Source: a virus. From it: DNA of 28,571 bases. Each line of letters begins with the position of its first letter. The first letter of the stretch is position 1. This document shows, one piece after another, positions 15,354 through 28,134 of the stretch. Position numbers and translations under genes: made by a program. The notes beneath the pieces are model-generated. The model did no database searches. It was not told the origin of the DNA and saw only the letters and a list, made by a program, of their open reading frames with translations. The stretch covers positions 1 through 28,571 of IMG/VR virus record IMGVR_UViG_3300025120_000388; one strand, written 5' to 3'.

Positions 15354-15539
15354 TCACAACTCCTTTACTAGGTTATCTTTTTGAAGGGTGAACTCATTGA
15401 TGAGTAGTTTGACAAGCTCCCTCTTGCCTGCATATATCCAGATCTCACGCTCAGACCAGCTAGGGTCAGGACATCTCTCTGGAACACGCTCATTAAGTGC
15501 TTCAATGAGGGTCTCATCAACCGTTGGAATTTTCCTCAT
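15354..15539 (-). CDS. Hypothetical protein (61 aa)
   Basis: From the ATG at 15539 the product is MRKIPTVDETLIEALNERVP followed by a Trp-rich centre (DPSWSEREIWIYAGKRELVK) and a Leu/Lys-rich end. I prefer this start because AAAGGA stands 5 bases before it. The frame is open for 17 more codons upstream, but that part lacks a ribosome site and lies wholly inside the DUF1599-like gene. The pattern WSEREIWIYAGKRELVxLL looks like a short helical hairpin seen in small phage proteins of this gene neighbourhood. I assign no function. Confidence 0.7.
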   Translation of the reverse strand: MRKIPTVDETLIEALNERVPERCPDPSWSEREIWIYAGKRELVKLLINEFTLQKDNLVKEL

Positions 15540-15879
15540 ACTCATCCTTTCCTGTCTCTGTTTGAACGTATGCATACAAAAGGATCGCATAGTTGATTAG
15601 GTCAAGTACCGTATCCTCCAGTTTTTCGTCGGGAACTTTGTACACACCAGTGTCAATGAAGGTGATCAGACGGGAGATCTTATCGGTGATCCTCACCATA
15701 AAACCCCTCTTGGTGTCTGTGATCCCTAGTTTCTCTACCCGAGTAAAGTTAAGGAAGGGGTCTTCAGCCGCCTTGCCCCCACTGTAGTCGTGGTTCTTTT
15801 GCTCCATCAGACACACTGCTTTCTCACAGAGACGGCGGTGTGCCCTCAGTAGTTGATCTCGATTCATTTTGGTTCCCAT
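15517..15879 (-). CDS. DUF1599-like (nucleotide modification-associated) protein (120 aa)
   Basis: The sequence has the small-helical-protein pattern of the DUF1599 / 'nucleotide modification associated domain 1' family: KNHDYSGGKAAEDPFLNFTR near residues 28-47, then RITDKISRLITFI and KLEDTVLDLINYAILLYAY. The D-Y-S/G ... D-P-F-x-N-F signature and the closing E-D-x-x-D-L-x-N-Y-x-x-L are visible. The family occurs widely in phages near replication genes; its biochemical role is not settled and is suspected to touch nucleotide metabolism. The start is set by GAGGTGA six bases before the ATG, inside the exonuclease end. A second ATG four codons on would give an ATGA overlap with the exonuclease stop. 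Confidence 0.75.
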   Translation of the reverse strand: MGTKMNRDQLLRAHRRLCEKAVCLMEQKNHDYSGGKAAEDPFLNFTRVEKLGITDTKRGFMVRITDKISRLITFIDTGVYKVPDEKLEDTVLDLINYAILLYAYVQTETGKDEYEENSNG

Positions 15880-16634: not shown

Positions 16635-16818
16635 TCATTACTGCACACTTACCTAATTCAACAAGACCCAATACCGAATGAAACGGACCTTCAAATGCAA
16701 CCGTCACATCCTCGACGTTGCTCGTCCTATTGCTTGCTGCAAGGAACACCATGGTGTCATGCCTTTTTCGCAGCTCTTTTAATAGTGAGGTTGTTGGTAT
16801 GTAATCAAGCGACTCCAT
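16597..16818 (-). CDS. Hypothetical protein (73 aa)
   Basis: The protein starts MESLDYIPTTSLLKELRKRH and continues DTMVFLAASNRTSNVEDVTV with a short acidic tail (ISNDEDSFSD). The opening, S/T-x-x-LLxELxxRxDxxVFL, is a pattern found in many small phage proteins of unknown role and looks like a helix followed by a strand. The ATG overlaps the end of the homing-endonuclease gene by 14 bases, and the gene's own end overlaps the exonuclease start by 38 bases. The ribosome site is weak (GAAAG). Its overlap with genes on both sides supports coupled translation in one operon. No function is assigned. Confidence 0.65.
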   Translation of the reverse strand: MESLDYIPTTSLLKELRKRHDTMVFLAASNRTSNVEDVTVAFEGPFHSVLGLVELGKCAVMNGISNDEDSFSD

Positions 16819-17221
16819 TATATCTTTTCTTTCTCAGGTCACTAAGCCTGTCTATATTTGATTGTCTCATGGCTGATTTTGGTGGGTACTTACCAGAATG
16901 AAGAACAATCTCTGCCTGAGCTTTTTTATATGTGAGGTAAGGAAGTATGTGCGAAAGAACATTCAATGCCCTCTCCCCATACACACTCCACCTGTACACA
17001 TTTGCTTCCCTGCGCTGTTTGATGATGACGCTGCCGCCAAACATTGAGGCGGGCACATCAGCCAGCTCTGGCGTAACGGTTTCAACCTGAACAACTGGCG
17101 TGTCTTTGTAGCAGACATAACCTTCTCCATCCACTATGCCAGCAAGCCAAGCCAACTCAGTGGGTTTCGGCCCAGTTGGATCCGATCTTGTACTCTCCGT
17201 CGAGAGGACATCTGAACTCAT
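16805..17221 (-). CDS. Single-motif LAGLIDADG homing endonuclease (about 138 aa)
   Basis: The signature LAWLAGIVDGEGY (residues 23-35 from the ATG at 17221) is a clear LAGLIDADG motif with the catalytic acid in DGEG. One motif and this length suggest a homodimer. Later segments include VIIKQRREANVYRWSVYGER (a strand pair) and SHILPYLTYKKAQAEIVLHS (a helix with a basic, K-K-A-Q turn). This is the usual ending of small phage enzymes of this type. The ORF overlaps the last 65 bases of the DNA polymerase gene in another frame. GGTGA sits five bases before the chosen ATG, and a TTG exactly after the polymerase stop is an alternative start. It is a free-standing gene, not an intein or intron, since the polymerase is intact. 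The likely role is selfish mobility into phages lacking it. Confidence 0.85.
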   Translation of the reverse strand: MSSDVLSTESTRSDPTGPKPTELAWLAGIVDGEGYVCYKDTPVVQVETVTPELADVPASMFGGSVIIKQRREANVYRWSVYGERALNVLSHILPYLTYKKAQAEIVLHSGKYPPKSAMRQSNIDRLSDLRKKRYNGVA

Positions 17222-18986
17222 AGGGTTCACCGGCCTCACGCATCGCTTGTACCGCAATCCTTCCGACATCATCAGCCTCACTTTCTAAAACCTCAAACTG
17301 TACCTCATCATGAACGTGCATGATTTGATTTGCTGAGAGTTGGTTTTGTTTGATGTACTCATCCATGATGATAGTGGATCTCTTCATCAGTATACTACCG
17401 GCTGACTGTAGGAGTAGGTTAAGTGCTGAATGCTCTGACCTGATGGGTAACTTCCTGCCATCTATTGCAGGCAGCCAGTCCTGAGTCTTGAGCCGGTTAG
17501 CGATGGCTGACTTCAACTTCTTGAGTGCAGGAATACCATCTTCAAGCATGGTCCTCATAGTGCGCCCTTCACGGCGACCACCACCAACCAGCTTGCCCAC
17601 CAATACATCACCAGCTCCATAGAGAGTGGCATACATCACGCCCTTGCCGGGACCACGTTCAATGCCCATCTTGTCTGCATTGAATTGATGGATGTCACCT
17701 TCCAATAAGATCTTGATGTACTCGCCGCCATCCCACCTAGCCAAGTAATGAGCAAGACATCTCAACTCAAGGCCCGACATATCACAACCAACCATCACCA
17801 TTCCGGGTGAAGGCTTGAACAGTTCACGGCATTCCTTACCCCAAAGAGATCCGATAGCAGGCACCTGAGCAAGGTTCGGTCTTGAGTGTGAGCAGCGAGA
17901 GGAAATCGTACCAAGGGTGTTCACATACCCATGGATGCGTCCATCCCTAGAAGCTCTAAGCCATGACTCACGGCCCTCACTAAGCTGACCGATGCGCTTG
18001 CCGATAGTGAGATACCTCGACAATACTTTGGCCTCTGGGTAGGGCAGGGATGACAAGACTGACTCATCTACCTTCGGCCTGCCATCGCCCGTCAACTCAG
18101 TTGGCTTCCACCCATACATCTTGATGAGAGCGTTGGCAATCTGAAGTCTACTGCCGGGGTTGAAGGGAACAACCCGGCGGCGGAGGGGACCAGCCTTGAG
18201 ACGCTTCTGTACTGGATAGGTTGCGTCCTTCTTACGTGCATACCTTTCCTTGGTTTCAGTATCAATGTAATACTGAGGAGTCTTCATTGGCTCGTCTTGA
18301 GCAGGGAAGATTTCTTGAAGATCTGCCTCCATGGTTACCTTCTCACCAATCAATTCTGAGTGCAGCTTATATGCAGCCTGCTCATCAAACGCGACACCGT
18401 TGGCTTCCTGTTCGAGGATGATGTCCCTGAAGTCACGTTCAACTGCGTACACTTCAGGCTTGAAGTCGATGGATATCTTATTCCACAGAGCGAGGTTGAC
18501 CTTTACATCCTGCCGACAATACTCAGCCATCTCGTTAGTGAACTCAGACCAATCAGTCTGTTTGCCGAAGTCACCCTTCAACAGTCCAAGCCGGTGGCCC
18601 CAAGCCTCAAGGGAGTATCGGCCACGTAGCTTTTTAGGCATGTCACCATTCTGGAAGTCAATGCGTATAGCATCGGGCTGCATAATCTTTCCTGCAAGGG
18701 TGGTGTCAACAGTGGCACAGTTACTCAACGGCATAGATGGGTACATCTTCTTGAGTGCCGGGATGTCGAACTTGTCGATGTTGTGGCCGATCAATCGGTC
18801 AGCAAGACTGAGCCTGTGCATTCCATCTGCAATCTTCCACCCATTGTCATAGCTGTCTGAGTAGACATCGACAACATCAGGACTAGCCACATCACAGATA
18901 GCGATGCAGTGGACTACATGGAGATCACTAAGCTCTGCCCAATCCATGATGGCATTGGTCTCAATATCAAATACTAGCTGGTACAA
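17157..18986 (-). CDS. Family A DNA polymerase with 3'-5' exonuclease, T7 gp5-like (609 aa)
   Basis: This is the replicative polymerase. The exonuclease domain comes first: VFDIETN (D7, E9), HNIDKFD (about 69-74) and EYCRQDVKVN (about 155-164). The polymerase domain shows SSRCSHSRPNLAQVP, motif A CDMSGLELRCLAHYLARWDG (D402), motif B GKGVMYATLYGAG (K448, Y456) and motif C MHVHDEVQFEV (H559, D560). It ends GSNWAETH, matching T7's GPNWAICH-type end, so the C-terminus is complete. T7's enzyme has 704 aa. The stretch corresponding to the thioredoxin-binding insert (between TPQYY and FNPGSR) is only about 40 aa. I place the start at TTG 18986, with GAGGAG seven bases upstream; a 10-codon extension to another TTG overlaps the helicase and lacks support. 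Confidence 0.95.
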   Translation of the reverse strand: MYQLVFDIETNAIMDWAELSDLHVVHCIAICDVASPDVVDVYSDSYDNGWKIADGMHRLSLADRLIGHNIDKFDIPALKKMYPSMPLSNCATVDTTLAGKIMQPDAIRIDFQNGDMPKKLRGRYSLEAWGHRLGLLKGDFGKQTDWSEFTNEMAEYCRQDVKVNLALWNKISIDFKPEVYAVERDFRDIILEQEANGVAFDEQAAYKLHSELIGEKVTMEADLQEIFPAQDEPMKTPQYYIDTETKERYARKKDATYPVQKRLKAGPLRRRVVPFNPGSRLQIANALIKMYGWKPTELTGDGRPKVDESVLSSLPYPEAKVLSRYLTIGKRIGQLSEGRESWLRASRDGRIHGYVNTLGTISSRCSHSRPNLAQVPAIGSLWGKECRELFKPSPGMVMVGCDMSGLELRCLAHYLARWDGGEYIKILLEGDIHQFNADKMGIERGPGKGVMYATLYGAGDVLVGKLVGGGRREGRTMRTMLEDGIPALKKLKSAIANRLKTQDWLPAIDGRKLPIRSEHSALNLLLQSAGSILMKRSTIIMDEYIKQNQLSANQIMHVHDEVQFEVLESEADDVGRIAVQAMREAGEPYEFRCPLDGEYKIGSNWAETH

Positions 18987-21564: not shown

Positions 21565-23949
21565 TCATGAAAAGTAATACTGAGCCTTTAGAACTTGCGA
21601 TACATCTAGATCGCCCTGAGGTGGTGGCTCTGGTAGGTCCACCCCAGATGGTAACAAAACAGACATCTCACGATGAGTATCTGCTAATGCATTTCCTGAA
21701 AATATATTTACTGTTGCTTGTCTTGCTGCTGCTGCCATGGTGGCAACGTGTGGTGCGTGTGTCTCATAGTCATCATGAATAGCCATGAAGTCATGGACAC
21801 CATGGTCGAGTGCAAGATTGACTGACTCACCAAGCAGTCCACCTATGCCATCATAACTATGTACCCAGTTAGGTGCCATTGAGTTGACTGACTTTCGTTT
21901 TGATGGGTCACCACTATCCTTACGAATTCTTGTCTGCCTAATCACACCAAAGACATTGGTCTTGATGTTGAGATGTGACTGCTTCTCATAATGCATTCGT
22001 ACTGGAAGACCGAGAGGTGTAGTCCATTGAGGCACAACGCCGTTGTCTATACAGATGGCGGCGACCGACTGAAGCCAGTCCATGCCTTGACGTGCTGCCT
22101 TAACGGACATGCTGATGGCTTCCCATATTCTTTCAGCCAACCAGTTGCATGGAGTGTAGGTCTCCTCACCGAAGGGGTTCTCTCTACCCTTAGCAACTTC
22201 ACTATAGAACCACTCAGCAGTGTACTGCTTACACGCAAAGAACGTTGAACCATACGGGAGGGTCATGGTGCTACGCTTGGTAGTCTTACGGGTGAGTCCG
22301 AACTTGCGCCAGCCTCTTGCATACTCACTGTTGTCATTCTCAATCAGTTTGTATACCTGATCACACACTTGCTGATAGACATCATTAGGTGAGCCACATG
22401 GCATGCAGTTGGTTGCCAGTGCGCTCTCGATATCTCTGAGTACGATGGCGTATATCTGCAAGCCTTGGTTGGTTGCATCAATACCAATAGGCAAGTGAGT
22501 GTAGAAGTTTGATGTCGTTGACATCTTGTAGAACTCATTGCATGCGGCTAAGAACAGCCAAGGATCATCTGCCTTAGTCCATTCCATGCAGCCTATCGGA
22601 TCCTTTCCGATACGCATGATCATCTTCTTGTTCTGTTCAGTCCACTTGATCCTGTCTGAATACGACAGCTTGTCATGGCCGTAGCAGTTGGCAATGTGAA
22701 TGCACAACCACTGGACACCAACATCAGTCATGCGTTGTGGGTTGTGGAACAGGAAGCAGGACTTGACAAAGGATGGACCTTGAGGGTTAAGGAAGTGGGG
22801 CTGGTAATACCCTCTACCCCGGAAGTCCATACTCATTGGCTGGTAAAATTTTTGGCCAGAAAATTTCTTTGTAAGGCTCAACACTCTCAGAGCATGTAGC
22901 CTCTTAGATTGCTTACGTTCATTCTCAAAGTGTTGACGGGCTGCACTACGTCTCCATGCCTTGCGTGACTCAGCATTGGTCTTGATGTCATGGGGCTTGG
23001 CAGGCAGCGGCTCATCATCAGAGCTGACAAGTCCGTCAACCTCAAGTCCACGGGTCCAGCAATGCTCCATCGTATTCATAACAAAGTCATTGACCTTAAA
23101 GGGTGTTGACTGGAGTGCATTGATAGCCCGGTAAACCTTAGGCATTTCCGCAACTGCCGCTGTGTCAAGGTGAGTCTTGTCCGTTGTCTTGAGTAAAGGC
23201 CGCCTCCTGATGACATCAGATTGATAGCCGCCGATGAACACGTTCGTCCACGGCAGTGGCTCTACACACATGGGAAGTTGCACTGGATTGAGCATCTCCA
23301 AGTGAGCATGGGCACCCTTTAACCATGCACGTAGATCATCCGAGGGCTGAACCCATTGAAGTGATTTACCATGCTGATCTTTGCGGGCAACAATCTCAAT
23401 CAATCCTGTGGACTGCCGCATCAACTCAAGACACACAACTCCAACCCTTATCCTCTCGTCTGTTGTCCAGCGTGGCAAGACGATGTCGTGGAACCTGAGT
23501 GTCTTGTTAATGAACTTGGCCTTGTTCTTGGCTGACTTGTATCGGTCAAGAACCCTGTTCATCTGTGCCCATAGTTCAGTGTACTCATCCTTGAGTAGCA
23601 CATACTTGGCCTCATCCTCAATGAGACCGCCGATGGTTGCCGCTGTGGTGTTGAGCTTCCTACCCTGAGAGATGCAGTCGAGGGTAGCACGGGCTGTCAG
23701 TGCTGCCGCTACCTTAGGAGACACCTGTTCAACGAGAGGAAGGACACGGTGCTGCCGTCCTGATGAAGTCCGAGCATGGTGTATCCAATCCTCGAAGTGT
23801 TCAGTCAGGGCAACAACGCTGTGTTGTAATAGTTGTTGTCCGGCTGGGTGAGTGGACTCGATACCTAACTCAGTGGCACGAGATACCTTAGAGCGATATC
23901 TCTCTCGCCCACGATCCAGCATTTCTTGTTCTAAATCTGATTGTTTCAA
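21565..23949 (-). CDS. Single-subunit DNA-directed RNA polymerase, T7-like (794 aa)
   Basis: This enzyme transcribes the phage middle and late genes. Signature motifs are all present: MSMDFRGRGYYQPHFLNPQG (374-391), GIDATNQGLQ with the catalytic D491 (T7 D537), TKRSTMTLPYG (557-567, with K558 and Y566 matching T7 K631 and Y639), SMAPNWVHSYDG (690-701) and AIHDDYET with H725 and D726 (T7 H811, D812). Length is shorter than T7's 883 aa. The N-terminal EQEMLDRGRERYR resembles T7's LEHESYEMGEARFR. The start is TTG at 23949, overlapping the integrase stop as TTGA, with AGGAG six bases upstream; the next ATG is 9 codons inside. Its own promoters could not be recognised by eye. Confidence 0.97.
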   Translation of the reverse strand: MKQSDLEQEMLDRGRERYRSKVSRATELGIESTHPAGQQLLQHSVVALTEHFEDWIHHARTSSGRQHRVLPLVEQVSPKVAAALTARATLDCISQGRKLNTTAATIGGLIEDEAKYVLLKDEYTELWAQMNRVLDRYKSAKNKAKFINKTLRFHDIVLPRWTTDERIRVGVVCLELMRQSTGLIEIVARKDQHGKSLQWVQPSDDLRAWLKGAHAHLEMLNPVQLPMCVEPLPWTNVFIGGYQSDVIRRRPLLKTTDKTHLDTAAVAEMPKVYRAINALQSTPFKVNDFVMNTMEHCWTRGLEVDGLVSSDDEPLPAKPHDIKTNAESRKAWRRSAARQHFENERKQSKRLHALRVLSLTKKFSGQKFYQPMSMDFRGRGYYQPHFLNPQGPSFVKSCFLFHNPQRMTDVGVQWLCIHIANCYGHDKLSYSDRIKWTEQNKKMIMRIGKDPIGCMEWTKADDPWLFLAACNEFYKMSTTSNFYTHLPIGIDATNQGLQIYAIVLRDIESALATNCMPCGSPNDVYQQVCDQVYKLIENDNSEYARGWRKFGLTRKTTKRSTMTLPYGSTFFACKQYTAEWFYSEVAKGRENPFGEETYTPCNWLAERIWEAISMSVKAARQGMDWLQSVAAICIDNGVVPQWTTPLGLPVRMHYEKQSHLNIKTNVFGVIRQTRIRKDSGDPSKRKSVNSMAPNWVHSYDGIGGLLGESVNLALDHGVHDFMAIHDDYETHAPHVATMAAAARQATVNIFSGNALADTHREMSVLLPSGVDLPEPPPQGDLDVSQVLKAQYYFS

Positions 23950-25019
23950 CTGCTGCTCCTGTCACGTTCCGTGTCACAAGCAGCCTTCGTGTCACACGGT
24001 ATCAAATCTTCAATGTTAGTGCAAGCCTCTAGCTTCTCAATGTCAACCTTGAGCTTGCGAGTATTAAGGTGGGTGTACCTCTGTGTAGTTGAAAGGTCTT
24101 TGTGACCTGCCAACTCCTGTATTGTCCTGAGGTCCGTACCATTCTGGCTCAGACGAGAGCAGAAGGTATGCCTCATGGCATGGAGGATGTCGCCCTTACC
24201 CATACCGATCCTTGATCGAACCCCATGCCACTCCTTACAAGCTGCATCGTAGTTCATACTGAAGAACCAATTGTTTGTATCCACCTGACTGAGTAGACGG
24301 TGGACACGGGTGGTCATGGGTATTGACCTAGCTCCATCGTTCTTGGTCTCACCCTCATGAAGAACAATCAACTTCTCATCGAACAAGATGTTGTCATGAG
24401 TAAGACCGAGAGCCTCACTGATACGCATCCCGGTATCAAACAGGATGACAATCAACCTAAAGAACTCGGGGTTGTTGTTGAGCTTACATTCCTCAAGGAT
24501 CAACCGCTGTTCCTCTTCGGTGTACCACCTGAAACGAGATGGTGGCTCACCCTGACGAGGGATGTATGGCAAACGATCCAGATCCTCACGCCGATAAGAA
24601 TGCTTGAGTACCTTGGATACTACGGACAGCTTCCTGTTGATGGTGCCCGGAGAATTACCAGAGCGTTCAAGCTGGATGGTGTACTGATCAAGGATGTCGG
24701 TGGTGATTGATGACAACAACGTCTCATTACCTAGATCATCCCTGACTTGCATCATCCTATTCTTAGCGTTGCGAGCATCCTTCTGCTTAGACCACACTAG
24801 GTCATACACTTGTTGGGATACCTCACCAAAACATTTACCCTGCTTTGTCTCCTCCTTAGGAGTCTCATTAGGAAAGGGATCAAGTCCCTGCAACAGGTTG
24901 GCCTTGGCATGTATCTCACAGTCCTTAGCCTCCTGCATCGTGGGTCTGCTGCGTCGATAGCGAACACCCCTATGTACAAAGTCCACTTGGAACGATGTAC
25001 CTCTCACCTTGATAGTCAT
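23946..25019 (-). CDS. int: Tyrosine recombinase / phage integrase (357 aa)
   Basis: The full catalytic set is visible: R199 in DTGMRISEALGL, K226 in GETKND, H280 and R283 in HAMRHTFCSRL, H306 in LAGHKDL and Y315 in TTQRYTHL. The N-terminal part has an arm-binding-type basic segment (RGVRYRRSRP) and a core-binding helical domain (about residues 65-150). Such enzymes integrate phage DNA at an attachment site by strand exchange. The start is ATG 25019 with GGAGG five bases before; a TTG four codons upstream would destroy this spacing. A sigma70-type promoter precedes it, and the gene is coupled to the RNA polymerase. I could not find an attP, excisionase or repressor in the window, so whether the phage is truly temperate is open. 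Confidence 0.95.
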   Translation of the reverse strand: MTIKVRGTSFQVDFVHRGVRYRRSRPTMQEAKDCEIHAKANLLQGLDPFPNETPKEETKQGKCFGEVSQQVYDLVWSKQKDARNAKNRMMQVRDDLGNETLLSSITTDILDQYTIQLERSGNSPGTINRKLSVVSKVLKHSYRREDLDRLPYIPRQGEPPSRFRWYTEEEQRLILEECKLNNNPEFFRLIVILFDTGMRISEALGLTHDNILFDEKLIVLHEGETKNDGARSIPMTTRVHRLLSQVDTNNWFFSMNYDAACKEWHGVRSRIGMGKGDILHAMRHTFCSRLSQNGTDLRTIQELAGHKDLSTTQRYTHLNTRKLKVDIEKLEACTNIEDLIPCDTKAACDTERDRSSS

Positions 25020-25041
25020 ATCTACCTCCAATCAATTACTG

Positions 25042-25069
25042 AGCATAAACTATTGTCTCACCTTGTCAA
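25042..25069 (-). promoter_or_regulatory. Sigma70-type promoter for integrase and RNA polymerase
   Basis: The minus strand has TTGACA (25069-25064, perfect -35), a 16-base spacer, then TATGCT (25047-25042, four of six bases of the -10 consensus). Transcription would begin near 25035, about 7 bases before the integrase ribosome site. It sits in the end of the 69 aa gene. Host RNA polymerase could thus express integrase and phage RNA polymerase together. Sequence match only. Confidence 0.6.
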
Positions 25070-25275: not shown

Positions 25276-25317
25276 AATAAAAGCCCCCGCATCGGAGGGG
25301 GTTTCCGATACGGGGGC
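25276..25317 (-). terminator. Strong intrinsic terminator at end of the early block
   Basis: The minus strand forms a 14 bp GC-rich stem (25283-25296 with 25304-25317, one G-U pair), a seven-base loop and the run TTTTATTAC. It follows the DUF932-type gene by 32 bases and separates the early genes from integrase and RNA polymerase. Early-gene transcription by host polymerase would mostly stop here. Confidence 0.94.
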
Positions 25318-25349
25318 CAACTGAAAGGGAGATGTAGAGATTTGGTTGA

Positions 25350-26210
25350 TCAGAAGTCGGAGGAGACAGGTCTAACCTGATCAACGTCATCATCATAACC
25401 TGATGTGATTGTCTTGGGTGATGCTTCAGGGGCATAATCCTTGACAATTTCGAGCAATCTGTTGTTGCTCCCGTGGCGTTGGAAGATGCTGCGACCTCTG
25501 CCGCGCTCAGTGAATGCGTTGACAAGGGACCACGCATTGCGTTCCTTGTACTCACTGTAGTTGGGATTATCCCACTTATCCCACACATCTTTGACACCGG
25601 CAGGGTTGATTACACCAGCCCTCATACTGTCCATGATGATGTGGTCAGCCATGCGGTTGGTCATCTCAGTTTGTTGGAGCGACTGGACTTGCTCCTCCTG
25701 AGTCTGGAACTGACCAAGCAACTGATCCACACCACCATAGACAATCTTGTAGATATCATCCTCAACATTCTTGGTCTGCTTGCGTCGAATAGTACCCTCG
25801 ACCTGACCGAATGTGAGACCATTGGAACAGATACACACCTCGATACCAGTGATCAACTGGATGGACATGGACTTGTCGTAGCTGTTCTGAATGAACACCT
25901 GACGATTCATAGTCATGCCACCAACCTCATCAGTGACTGAGGTGTGCCTGATATTCATCACGGTCATGAACTTTGCAGGCGCTTCTTGACCATTGACCTT
26001 GCCGTTGCCCACGTAGTGCATTGGCTCTGAGTGTTCATAGTCAGCACGGCCAAGGGCATTGGACACCATGTCGAACAGACGGTGGTGGTCTCTAGGCTTG
26101 TGAGTATCGGTGACCGGGGGAGGCGCAAGGCGACTGACCTGCTCGGTAGTGTATGCCTTGCCCCATGAACCCATGACGTTATTAGTCGGAACGGGAATAG
26201 TTGAAACCAT
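25350..26210 (-). CDS. DUF932-type phage/plasmid protein (286 aa)
   Basis: The features fit the DUF932 / phage-plasmid-like family: an N-terminal helical stretch, a beta-rich core with VFIQNSYDKSMSIQLITGIE and the hallmark VCICSNGLTFGQ (residues 125-136), and, near the end, RNAWSLVNAFTERGRGR. The biochemical role of the family is unknown; members are common on plasmids and in phages that replicate fast. Here it is the last early gene before the terminator, which suggests high early expression. The C-terminus is acidic and ends VSSDF, like the SSB's NSDF. The ATG has AAAGGA upstream, after the 247 aa gene. The family call is fairly confident; no function is claimed. Confidence 0.78.
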   Translation of the reverse strand: MVSTIPVPTNNVMGSWGKAYTTEQVSRLAPPPVTDTHKPRDHHRLFDMVSNALGRADYEHSEPMHYVGNGKVNGQEAPAKFMTVMNIRHTSVTDEVGGMTMNRQVFIQNSYDKSMSIQLITGIEVCICSNGLTFGQVEGTIRRKQTKNVEDDIYKIVYGGVDQLLGQFQTQEEQVQSLQQTEMTNRMADHIIMDSMRAGVINPAGVKDVWDKWDNPNYSEYKERNAWSLVNAFTERGRGRSIFQRHGSNNRLLEIVKDYAPEASPKTITSGYDDDVDQVRPVSSDF

Positions 26211-26223
26211 TTGAGTCTTCCTT

Positions 26224-26967
26224 TCAATTAAGACTTTTTAGTTTGACAGTGTAGTTGGAAGCACCACTGCCGTGTGCTTTAATAAATATATTCTTTGACT
26301 TTTTCTTGGCACCGCAACACAGCCCACAGTCATGACACTGAAGGTTATGTGACTCTGCCAAACATAGAAGCTCGTCACTTGTAGGCTCATCGTCAGGACC
26401 ACCAACACGGAAAGTCCTGTAGCCCATGTAGTTAGCTTCCTCCTTCTGGGTTAGGTTGTCTACTGATGCCATGACATAGGCACTCCACTCCTCATCGCAC
26501 CACTCCCACTGATGTGTGTATCCAGTGCGGGTAAGCCATTTGAAATCCATGAATGAGTCAGTGACTTGGAAGGGGACAGCAGCGGGATCACCGTAGGCAC
26601 CAAGCCTGATTGATCGGTGAGTGTGATAGAAGGCACCGAAGTCAAGAGGGTCTACCTTCTGGTACTTACCCTCGGTCCATGACTTCCAGATAGCACGGGG
26701 TGCTTGACCTACATTGACATAGCATGAACGCCGTTGTCCATCCTGTGCCCGGTGAATACAGTTGCCACAGATAGACTCATCTGCTCCAGTCTTGACGGCA
26801 TCAACAGGTGACACGTCTTGTCGGAGTATCCAAGTCTGAATCATGTTGCCTGTCTTACGGTTGGAGGAGGAGAGCGTGGCTATATAAACAATAGGACTCC
26901 CGTCAATGACGGAAGCCCCTCGCCACAACTCCACTCCCCCTAGTTGAGGGAGGGTGTTGAGTCTCAT
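26224..26967 (-). CDS. Cysteine-rich protein of unknown function (247 aa)
   Basis: The protein shows two metal-binding-like Cys groups: C67, C70 and C82 in ESICGNC ... RRSCYVNVGQAPRAIWKSW, and C211, C214, C217 and C218 in CHDCGLCCGAKKKSKN. Between them lies HRSIRLGAYGDPAAVPFQVT (119-136), a segment I recall as shared among many phage and plasmid proteins of unknown role. Lys-rich residues follow the last Cys group. The 247 aa protein lies in the early block just before the DUF932-type gene, with AAAGGA upstream of its ATG. Zinc or iron-sulphur binding is an inference from Cys spacing. I do not name a family or function. Confidence 0.72.
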   Translation of the reverse strand: MRLNTLPQLGGVELWRGASVIDGSPIVYIATLSSSNRKTGNMIQTWILRQDVSPVDAVKTGADESICGNCIHRAQDGQRRSCYVNVGQAPRAIWKSWTEGKYQKVDPLDFGAFYHTHRSIRLGAYGDPAAVPFQVTDSFMDFKWLTRTGYTHQWEWCDEEWSAYVMASVDNLTQKEEANYMGYRTFRVGGPDDEPTSDELLCLAESHNLQCHDCGLCCGAKKKSKNIFIKAHGSGASNYTVKLKSLN

Positions 26968-26969
26968 TG

Positions 26970-27161
26970 TTATTTCCTTTCAGCTTGGTTAATCAATTCT
27001 TGCAGTGCTACCGCCTCCTCATTGAGTAGCAGCACAGTCCTCTTTACATACGCACACTTGGGATGTTCTTCCTTCTGTAATCTCTTGAACTCTCTCAAGT
27101 GTTTACTGATCTCAATTCTCTTGAAGGCAAGGGCAACTTCAACGTCAGTTATTTTCTCCAT
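26970..27161 (-). CDS. Hypothetical helical protein (63 aa)
   Basis: The protein is almost entirely charged helix: MEKITDVEVALAFKRIEISK, HLREFKRLQKEEHPKC, then KRTVLLLNEEAVALQELINQ. A short coiled-coil or helical-hairpin is likely (heptad-like Leu spacing in the second half). Its start overlaps the end of the sigma-like gene by 17 bases in another frame and has a good ribosome site, AAAGGA, five bases before the ATG. It ends two bases before the 247 aa gene. Overlap with the sigma-like gene suggests stoichiometric co-translation. A partner or anti-sigma role is conceivable but not supported by any motif. Confidence 0.65.
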   Translation of the reverse strand: MEKITDVEVALAFKRIEISKHLREFKRLQKEEHPKCAYVKRTVLLLNEEAVALQELINQAERK

Positions 27162-27651
27162 TCAATTCCTTTCTAAGTTCTCTCATGCGTTGAGAGATAC
27201 GTGACTCAGTGACACCCAGTGAGCATGCAACCTGACGCTGTGTTAGACCACGCTGTAATAGGTCAGTGATCTCTCTGTATTCCTGTGGTATTTCAGGAAG
27301 CACAGTGTCGGGTTCATCTTCATACTCATAGGTGGATTCAGGTAACTCATCGGTAAAGTAAAGACGTTGAGTGTACTTTCTAGGCACGCTCTTGCCATGC
27401 CTCTGACCAAGACGAGTGATCTGAATGTCCCTCTGTTCAGCATAGCTACGGTACACAACATCCCAGATAGATGCCTTGAGGAAACTGTTGATGTTGCCAC
27501 GCGATGGATCATGACGGTGACGGATAGCAAAGTATCCAACGATCACCTCATTGACAAGTTCATGGTAGGACCAATGCTTGAACTTGGGTAGTTGCTGCTT
27601 GGCCCACCAAAATGAGAACGTCTTCAGTTGTTCCCATACATCATCGGTCAC
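27145..27651 (-). CDS. Sigma-factor-like protein (168 aa)
   Basis: The N-terminal half has the outline of sigma region 2: an ELVNEVIVGYFAIRHRHDPSR segment (31-51), then GNINSFLKASIWDVVYRSYA (52-71), with RHDPSRG ... FLKASIWDVV in place of the usual FDPSRG ... FSTYA-x-x-x-I. The C-terminal half has a clean helix-turn-helix of region 4 type (about 133-163): LLQRGLTQRQVACSLGVTES, then RISQRMRELRKEL. The middle is acidic (STYEYEDEPDTVLPEIPQEY). At 168 aa it is close to small ECF-type sigma factors. The start is GTG overlapping the upstream stop as GTGA, with AAAGGTG upstream. A role redirecting host polymerase to phage genes is an inference; a plain DNA-binding regulator is the alternative. Confidence 0.68.
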   Translation of the reverse strand: MTDDVWEQLKTFSFWWAKQQLPKFKHWSYHELVNEVIVGYFAIRHRHDPSRGNINSFLKASIWDVVYRSYAEQRDIQITRLGQRHGKSVPRKYTQRLYFTDELPESTYEYEDEPDTVLPEIPQEYREITDLLQRGLTQRQVACSLGVTESRISQRMRELRKELNGENN

Positions 27652-28052
27652 TCATCGTACACCTTTACTAGCTCGTACCTGTACCGGGTCAACTTACATG
27701 GGCCTTTCAAATCACCCGGATGCTCAACAACCTCATACTCAGAAGCATTTGGGTACTTGCGTACCATGTTCTTGAGGCAGGCATCCTTCCTGAACTTATA
27801 CAGTGCAGTGATCTGTTCACCATCAGTGAAGTTGACAATGCCCTCGAAGCGGCCCTGAGGGAAGGCATCTGTGGTTGTTCTGAACCAGCTACCTTGACCA
27901 TCAACCCAGTTCATCCAGTCTTCAGCCCGCCAGTTAGCATTAGAGACAGGAGGGGTTGGGCATCTGTAATCCCACTCAGCATTATCAAATGCCTCAGTAT
28001 CGTAGTGTGAACATGCCGCAAGTTTCTGTTCTCTTGTTGGTCCTTTAGTCAT
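27648..28052 (-). CDS. Hypothetical early protein (134 aa)
   Basis: The start is ATG 28052, with GGAGACAACG before it. A further ATG four codons upstream sits on top of that ribosome site and is rejected. The protein is Asp/Trp/Tyr-rich in its first half (SHYDTEAFDNAEWDYRCPTP, WRAEDWMNWVDGQGSWFR) and basic in its second (YKFRKDACLKNMVRKYP, KLTRYRYELVKVYDE). It looks like a small soluble mixed alpha/beta protein; I see no recognisable fold or motif. Its end overlaps the sigma-like gene start by four bases and its own start lies in the end of a 29 aa ORF, so it is part of the coupled early operon. Confidence 0.7.
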   Translation of the reverse strand: MTKGPTREQKLAACSHYDTEAFDNAEWDYRCPTPPVSNANWRAEDWMNWVDGQGSWFRTTTDAFPQGRFEGIVNFTDGEQITALYKFRKDACLKNMVRKYPNASEYEVVEHPGDLKGPCKLTRYRYELVKVYDE

Positions 28053-28134
28053 CGTTGTCTCCATTCAGTTGAGCCAATGCATCTTCAATGTCCTCACCAT
28101 CAGCGAGGATCCAATCCCAGTCTTCGTCAATCAT
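28045..28134 (-). CDS. Tiny acidic protein (29 aa)
   Basis: The ORF reads MIDEDWDWILADGEDIEDAL then AQLNGDNDD and stops inside the next start (ATGACTAA). It is preceded by AAAGGAGACAACG, and the 14 bases GGAGACAACGATGA at its start are identical at the next gene's start. Thirteen of 29 residues are Asp or Glu. It is short, but the strong ribosome site and exact overlap argue that it is translated. It may act as an anti-nucleic-acid or host-binding peptide, or only to couple translation. Confidence 0.55.
   Translation of the reverse strand: MIDEDWDWILADGEDIEDALAQLNGDNDD

Follow-up and report, generated by a model that had tools for sequence, protein, structure and literature searches.

Phage-encoded sigma factors are an established kind of protein, and ECF-like ones are known in phiEco32-type phages and in phage CW02. 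The classic phage sigma factors (T4, SPO1 and phiEco32) serve phages that rely on the host RNA polymerase. T7-like phages damp the host polymerase with early proteins (T7 gp0.7 and gp2), and the enzyme is inhibited by T7 itself; the T7 record's note on gp0.7 speaks of host transcription shutoff. Where a phage makes its own T7-type polymerase, a sigma factor would imply that the host enzyme is re-used and not merely shut down. The phiEco32 sigma factor has been shown to bind E. coli RNA polymerase (PMC7881722). One report gives sigma factors as absent from 86.6% of 4,350 phage genomes and describes Bacillus phages in which lytic growth does not require a sporulation-like sigma factor and factors of this kind act on host genes (PMC9429907); another mentions a sigma factor among the genomic-island genes of marine viruses (PMC6487183). 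For the T7-like phage Q19, a sigma54-like protein was claimed (PMC7693777) from an HHpred match (E 0.67) that is too weak to make it a clear precedent. Among titles and abstract beginnings, with subscription journals thinly covered, the literature search found no T7-like phage that clearly pairs a sigma factor with a polymerase of its own, and nothing on CW02 together with a sigma factor.

The phage and its early operon

The window, by which we mean the whole 28,571-base virus record analyzed here, carries all of its main genes on the minus strand. In the order of transcription, small early genes are followed by integrase, RNA polymerase, a presumed single-stranded-DNA-binding protein, a RusA-like resolvase and primase/helicase, and then by DNA polymerase, exonuclease, connector, scaffold, major head protein, two tail proteins and internal virion proteins. 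The single-stranded-DNA-binding protein and the last three virion ORFs are named by their position and not by a profile. The genes from the early region to the RNA polymerase include the following:

27648–28064, minus strand: 138-aa early protein, upstream of the sigma gene (84% identical to its homologue in the related record L002; phrog_1871 over 29 residues, E 8.6e-7)
27145–27651, minus strand: putative sigma-70-family protein (ECF-like, two-domain), 168 aa, GTG start (TIGR02937, searches with the halves, low-confidence AlphaFold model)
26970–27161, minus strand: 63-aa early protein, downstream of the sigma gene (ORF list; 92% identical in L002 and 89% in L005, a second relative)
26224–26967, minus strand: 247-aa early protein (phrog_2554, E 8.5e-74)
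25350–26210, minus strand: DUF932 protein of the early region (PF06067, 42.6 bits, cut-off 23)
25282–25318, minus strand: terminator-like hairpin between the DUF932 gene and an 80-aa gene preceding integrase (15-pair stem with 10 GC, T-rich tail)
23946–25031, minus strand: tyrosine integrase (PF00589, E 5.5e-24)
21565–23949, minus strand: single-subunit T7-type RNA polymerase, 794 aa, full-length (phrog_414, E 6.3e-216)

The sigma gene is tightly packed between its neighbors: its start overlaps the stop of the 138-aa gene by 4 bp (GTGA), and the 63-aa gene starts within its last 17 bp. Terminator-like sites were about as frequent in this region (four) as expected from shuffles (3.5). In the alignment of the RNA polymerases, T7 residues D537, K631, Y639, H811 and D812 (presumed numbering, as is that of R756) are identical in the window protein, and R756 is replaced by glycine. 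T7-like temperate podophages are marked by a single-subunit polymerase that keeps its catalytic residues, by replication and head-tail genes of the T7 type and by an integrase; judged by this gene content the phage is temperate and T7-like, with its own RNA polymerase. The 794-aa enzyme bears out the initial annotation in placing a sigma-like gene in the presumed early region of such a phage.

No tRNA was found within the 28,571-base window, in which the tRNA T-arm pattern occurs at chance level (3 against a shuffle mean of 3.1); in L002 it is somewhat above chance (6 against a mean of 2.4, matched in 2 of 100 shuffles). Two further ORFs of the window were noted. A 158-aa HNH-endonuclease-like ORF (16805–17281; phrog_5046, E 2.2e-14) shares 125 bp with the end of the DNA polymerase ORF, and a 120-aa protein (15517–15879) has a weak likeness, under the cut-off, to DUF1599, a nucleotide modification associated domain (E 1.5e-4).

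Sigma-like features of the 168-aa protein

The reading frame of the sigma-like gene is uninterrupted from 27651 to 27145 on the minus strand, and its product can be divided into three parts:

residues ~1–76: region 2-like part
residues ~95–120: acidic linker
residues ~120–164: region 4 helix-turn-helix

It had been described from the sequence as joining a region 2-like segment to a region 4-type segment, a description that profile searches support, less strongly for region 2. The segments concerned lie at residues 48–52 (DPSRG), 57–66 (FLKASIWDVV) and 136–155 (LTQRQVACSLGVTESRISQR), and the sigma70-ECF model of NCBIfam (TIGR02937) matched residues 16–164 with its positions 17–162 of 165. The match (E 4.9e-11, 42.5 bits) is 0.4 bits short of the curated cut-off of 42.9 bits and still significant. 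The same model gave 108.5 bits for E. coli RpoE, 58.0 for CW02 gp21, 53.8 for a Bacillus phage sigma factor and 23.3 for phiEco32 gp36, the last of which the window protein outscores. As a profile match, it covers both parts in their order and exceeds what a chance helix-turn-helix would yield. In Pfam, the best family for the whole protein was Sigma70_r4 (E 1.6e-4); Sigma70_r2 came sixth (E 0.03), the ranks between were taken by other helix-turn-helix families, and all matches were under their own cut-offs. In PHROGs, a transcriptional regulator family came first (E 1.8e-4) and the RNA polymerase sigma factor family second (E 2.5e-4).

Searches with the halves bear on the possibility of an unrelated helix-turn-helix protein that has no similarity to region 2. 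Residues 1–95 alone matched one of 24,736 Pfam families at E<=1, and this family was Sigma70_r2 (E 0.0069, 16.6 bits, cut-off 24); residues 96–168 matched 20 families, with Sigma70_r4 at the top (E 2.8e-5, 24.0 bits, just under the cut-off of 24.1). The comparison with region 2 and region 4 profiles that the initial annotation had proposed thereby gave a match to each, both below their cut-offs. In NCBIfam, the C-terminal 83 residues alone scored 33.3 bits with TIGR02937 and residues 1–85 alone had no match at E<=10, so region 2 adds ~9 bits to the score of the whole. When residues 1–95 were aligned pairwise with reference sigma factors, the real score was reached by 729 (CW02), 184 (RpoE), 185 (phiEco32) and 48 (RpoD) of 1000 shuffles, so that similarity was not clear for four of the five references; for the Bacillus phage sigma factor no shuffle in 1000 scored as high, in a test that is biased by the choice of this partner as the preselected best match. 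The SigB/F/G model was absent among the NCBIfam matches of the 168-aa protein up to E 10.

The single-sequence AlphaFold model of the protein is of low confidence (mean pLDDT 57, below 50 for residues 44–116), with helices at residues 3–20, 29–47, 54–71, 78–84, 91–94, 123–133, 138–145 and 149–163. In the structure prediction, also proposed earlier, each end of the model aligns with a different sigma domain, one with region 2 and the other with region 4, at low confidence and with all Z-scores below 8, the level of common arrangements. The realignment took in Foldseek's own PDB matches only. Within that set, residues 1–76 aligned with region 2 of M. tuberculosis SigH (Z 6.0, rmsd 2.8, 66 residues aligned) and with Bartonella RpoE (Z 5.3, rmsd 3.1, 66 residues aligned), and residues 109–168 aligned with many sigma region 4 domains. 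The helix-turn-helix part also aligned with response-regulator domains (DesR at rank 1 with Z 6.7; SdiA, GerE and DosR) at Z-scores similar to or higher than those for sigma region 4. Foldseek against the PDB returned no match at E<=0.001, and the matches at ranks 3–11 all carry sigma factor names (E 0.17–0.70). Among viral proteins, a sigma name stands on 20 of the best 50 of 396 matches (E<=10), from E 0.02 upward, and the only match at E<=0.001 was A0A516MFZ3 (169 aa, 27% identity, E 2.4e-5). The model and the fold matches agree with a two-domain sigma factor, short of proof. From the profiles and the predicted fold, the 168-aa protein is probably a sigma-70-family protein of the two-domain ECF-like kind, in which the assignment of region 4 is solid and that of region 2 is supported but weaker.

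No close homologue of the protein was found in the databases scanned. Viral contigs searched with the whole protein, with a 57-residue piece of region 2 and with an alignment of two sequences yielded none, nor did genome contigs searched with the 168-aa protein; these contig scans require a match to a short peptide pattern and can miss distant relatives. Likewise, no relative was found in genome contigs scanned with the RNA polymerase of the window or in viral contigs scanned with the 138-aa neighbor. Among plasmids, tblastn matched three records (best E 0.5), none of them annotated as sigma. Among 50,697 phage records it gave seven matches (best E 0.4, 24% query coverage), all of them annotated sigma factors of Bacillus phages.

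Close relatives without the gene

Six close relatives emerged when the viral collection was searched with three proteins of the window: the RNA polymerase, the 247-aa protein and the integrase. Their RNA polymerases are 94% (L002), 96% over 303 residues (L005), 70% (L003 and L004), 68–74% in two pieces (L028/L006) and 67% (L029/L007) identical to that of the window. The L003 record begins at the integrase and holds no information on the early region; the other five cover this region wholly or partly, and the sigma gene is absent from all of them. With TIGR02937, which matches the window, no sigma gene was found in any of 10 related virus records (the six close relatives and four more distant ones), and with the sigma protein itself as query none was found in the six, the window itself being detected.

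The record of L002 has 37,822 bases and is taken as a complete genome because of its 238-bp terminal repeats (237 of 238 positions identical). The 138-aa and 63-aa genes have L002 homologues (84% and 92% identical, respectively) that are directly adjacent, with no sigma gene between them. In the blastn comparison, positions 507–924 of the reverse complement of the window correspond to L002 3658–4074, and positions 1411–1608 to L002 4071–4267, which delimits the following feature:

27162–27647, minus strand: sigma cassette, 486 bp (162 codons) that the window has and L002 lacks at the same place (blastn)

This extra piece is the sigma gene minus its overlaps with both neighbors. In L005, a shortened homologue of the 138-aa gene adjoins the 63-aa homologue, and the sigma gene is likewise missing. 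The end of this shortened gene was considered as a relic of a lost sigma gene and rejected, as the shared AAAGGAA resembles the ribosome-binding sites of other genes here. Both flanking genes are visible in L002 and L005 only, and the argument from absence is carried by one complete sister (L002) and four other records. A cognate anti-sigma gene is usually adjacent to ECF sigma genes; neither neighbor (27648–28064 and 26970–27161) has a Pfam match at E<=0.1, and both are also present in L002, which lacks the sigma gene.

The early region is mosaic in other respects as well. Genes for 68-, 108-, 101- and 94-aa proteins of L002 have no match in the window, and the 247-aa gene of the window is missing from L002 at the corresponding place. 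A foreign origin of the sigma gene is not indicated by composition: its G+C is unremarkable, and its codons are used much as elsewhere in the phage (log-likelihood per codon −1.084 against an expected −1.105). Judged by these comparisons, it looks like one more optional early gene, a single-gene cassette. Since relatives lack it, including a sister with a 94%-identical RNA polymerase, basic transcription in the lineage does not depend on it. The window is an incomplete record (28.6 kb against 37.8 kb for L002): its leader is ~2.8 kb and its far end ~6 kb short of the sister's, so phage promoters that this sigma factor might use could be out of sight.

Within L002, the early region encodes a lysozyme-like protein (2476–2865; Pfam Destabilase, 34.7 bits, above the cut-off) that has homologues in L004, L005, L028 and L029; the end of its counterpart is the first coding sequence at the edge of the window. 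The leader of L002 (1–350) contains three copies of ATCAACGAYCGTTTAC, a partial palindrome that could be an operator or a promoter element, and a fourth copy is in the right terminal repeat (L030).

Possible roles and comparison with known systems

The reading that we prefer, and hold to be rather probable, is that the 168-aa protein is an accessory, phage-encoded sigma-70-family factor, carried as an optional cassette that the transcription programme of the lineage can do without. It would be made early, from an operon that the host polymerase would transcribe, and would be translationally coupled to the upstream 138-aa gene. The expected partner of a sigma-70-family protein that has regions 2 and 4 is the multi-subunit host core, not the single-subunit phage enzyme. 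Region 2, which in this family serves core binding and −10 opening, would then bind the host core and region 4 would read a −35-like element, and part of the host polymerase would start at promoters unlike those of the main host sigma factor, either at host genes or at a few extra phage promoters. Host genes, which the initial annotation had named as an alternative target, are favored here as a putative target. More tentatively, the temperate T7-like phage may combine two takeover systems. Its own polymerase would handle the later genes, and the host polymerase would be steered by a captured sigma factor toward host genes or a lysogeny-related promoter, with the sigma gene moving as a single-gene cassette of the early operon. 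The complete sister genome without the gene makes the effect of the sigma factor cleanly testable by comparing the two phages.

The other target that had been proposed, the promoter preceding integrase and RNA polymerase, is disfavored. L002 and L005 keep both genes (94–96% identical) and lack the sigma gene, so integrase and RNA polymerase can do without it in this lineage, and with both genes present in close relatives that lack it the protein is unlikely to be the main early switch. The version of this explanation in which the phage has been rewired, so that the sigma factor with the host core transcribes the integrase-RNA polymerase unit, draws on the fact that the window differs from its sister in the integrase leader as well as in the sigma gene. 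The window is without a roughly 400-bp stretch that holds a 94–110 aa gene directly ahead of integrase in L002 (6154–6438), L005 (4460–4792) and L029 (4049–4336), and it has a TTGACA-16-TATGCT site at 25069–25042, ahead of the integrase. However, this site looks like a host housekeeping promoter, and sigma-70-like sites are no more frequent than in shuffles, both in the early region of the window (5 against 6.1 expected) and in L002 (9 against 9.6). A one-for-one swap of the sigma gene and the 94–110 aa gene is contradicted by L004 and L028, which lack both. Repeated 13-mers in the window included none that stood out as a promoter family; these scans say little about the sites of this sigma factor, since sigma-70-like patterns may not be its specificity. 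For the 94–110 aa gene, Pfam gave nothing with either the L002 or the L005 copy, and NCBIfam gave nothing with the L002 copy; by eye only, its product resembles a small winged-helix regulator.

We regard it as improbable that the protein is a sigma mimic which sits on the host core and blocks or competes with the main host sigma factor, as a takeover inhibitor and not an initiator. The damping of host polymerase by early proteins of T7-like phages would fit such a role, as would a divergent region 2 half and a long, acidic linker, but the helix-turn-helix is the best-kept part of the protein, and a pure competitor would have no need of one. An ordinary helix-turn-helix regulator of the NarL/LuxR-like or phage type, with no sigma function, has an even slimmer chance. 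The fold matches to DesR, SdiA, GerE and DosR, the lack of an NCBIfam match for residues 1–85 and the mostly negative pairwise tests of residues 1–95 point in that direction; against it, the sole Pfam match of the N-terminal half is sigma region 2, and the TIGR02937 match runs through both halves in order. An assembly chimera or a decaying gene is very improbable, for although the gene is known from a single record and a 30-base pattern over the upstream junction had no match in the viral collection (from which its own record was possibly left out), it has clean borders, operon-style overlaps, a full-length ORF and codon use that matches the rest of the phage.

The preferred reading, that of an accessory sigma factor, can be set against several known systems. 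By its RNA polymerase, the phage resembles T7-like phages (Autographiviridae; pelagiphages and roseophage CRP-171), whose enzymes are 30–33% identical over 99–100% among the best 40 of 2,682 matches. Unlike the window, none of 10 annotated phage records drawn from these best 40 has a sigma70-ECF match above the cut-off, which is in line with the earlier remark that a sigma factor is unusual for T7-like takeover. Two Eistla matches at E<=1 (15.1 and 15.0 bits; E 2.0e-4 and 2.9e-4) were taken for chance, as one spans four stop codons and the other lies inside a 1285-aa frame.

phiEco32 gp36 and the other ECF-type sigma factors of Kuravirus are similarly phage-encoded, ECF-like and from short-tailed phages. 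However, phiEco32 belongs to another subfamily (Gordonclarkvirinae), the 20 kb of its record covered here has one 42-aa CDS labeled RNA polymerase, and gp36 has no significant pairwise similarity to the window protein (134 of 500 shuffles as high). Salinivibrio phage CW02 encodes an annotated sigma factor of 161 aa, gp21 (TIGR02937 E 8.6e-16), along with DNA polymerase and primase/helicase, but its record has no RNA polymerase gene, and it is on the region 4 side that gp21 resembles the window protein (shuffles as high: 3 of 1000 for the C-terminal part and 729 of 1000 for the N-terminal part). The sigma factor encoded by gene 51 of Bacillus phage 276BB001, one of the seven tblastn matches, is colinear over region 2 and scores 78 locally against residues 1–95 (shuffles 27.9, sd 4.6, none of 1000 as high; biased by the choice of the best match as partner), whereas its tblastn E-value is 0.4–0.5 and its host is a Bacillus. 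The sporulation-like sigma factors of Bacillus phages are SigF/SigG-like and belong to phages of spore-formers, unlike the window protein, which has no SigB/F/G match; they resemble the role proposed here in that a phage sigma factor is described as non-essential for lytic growth and as acting on host genes (PMC9429907).
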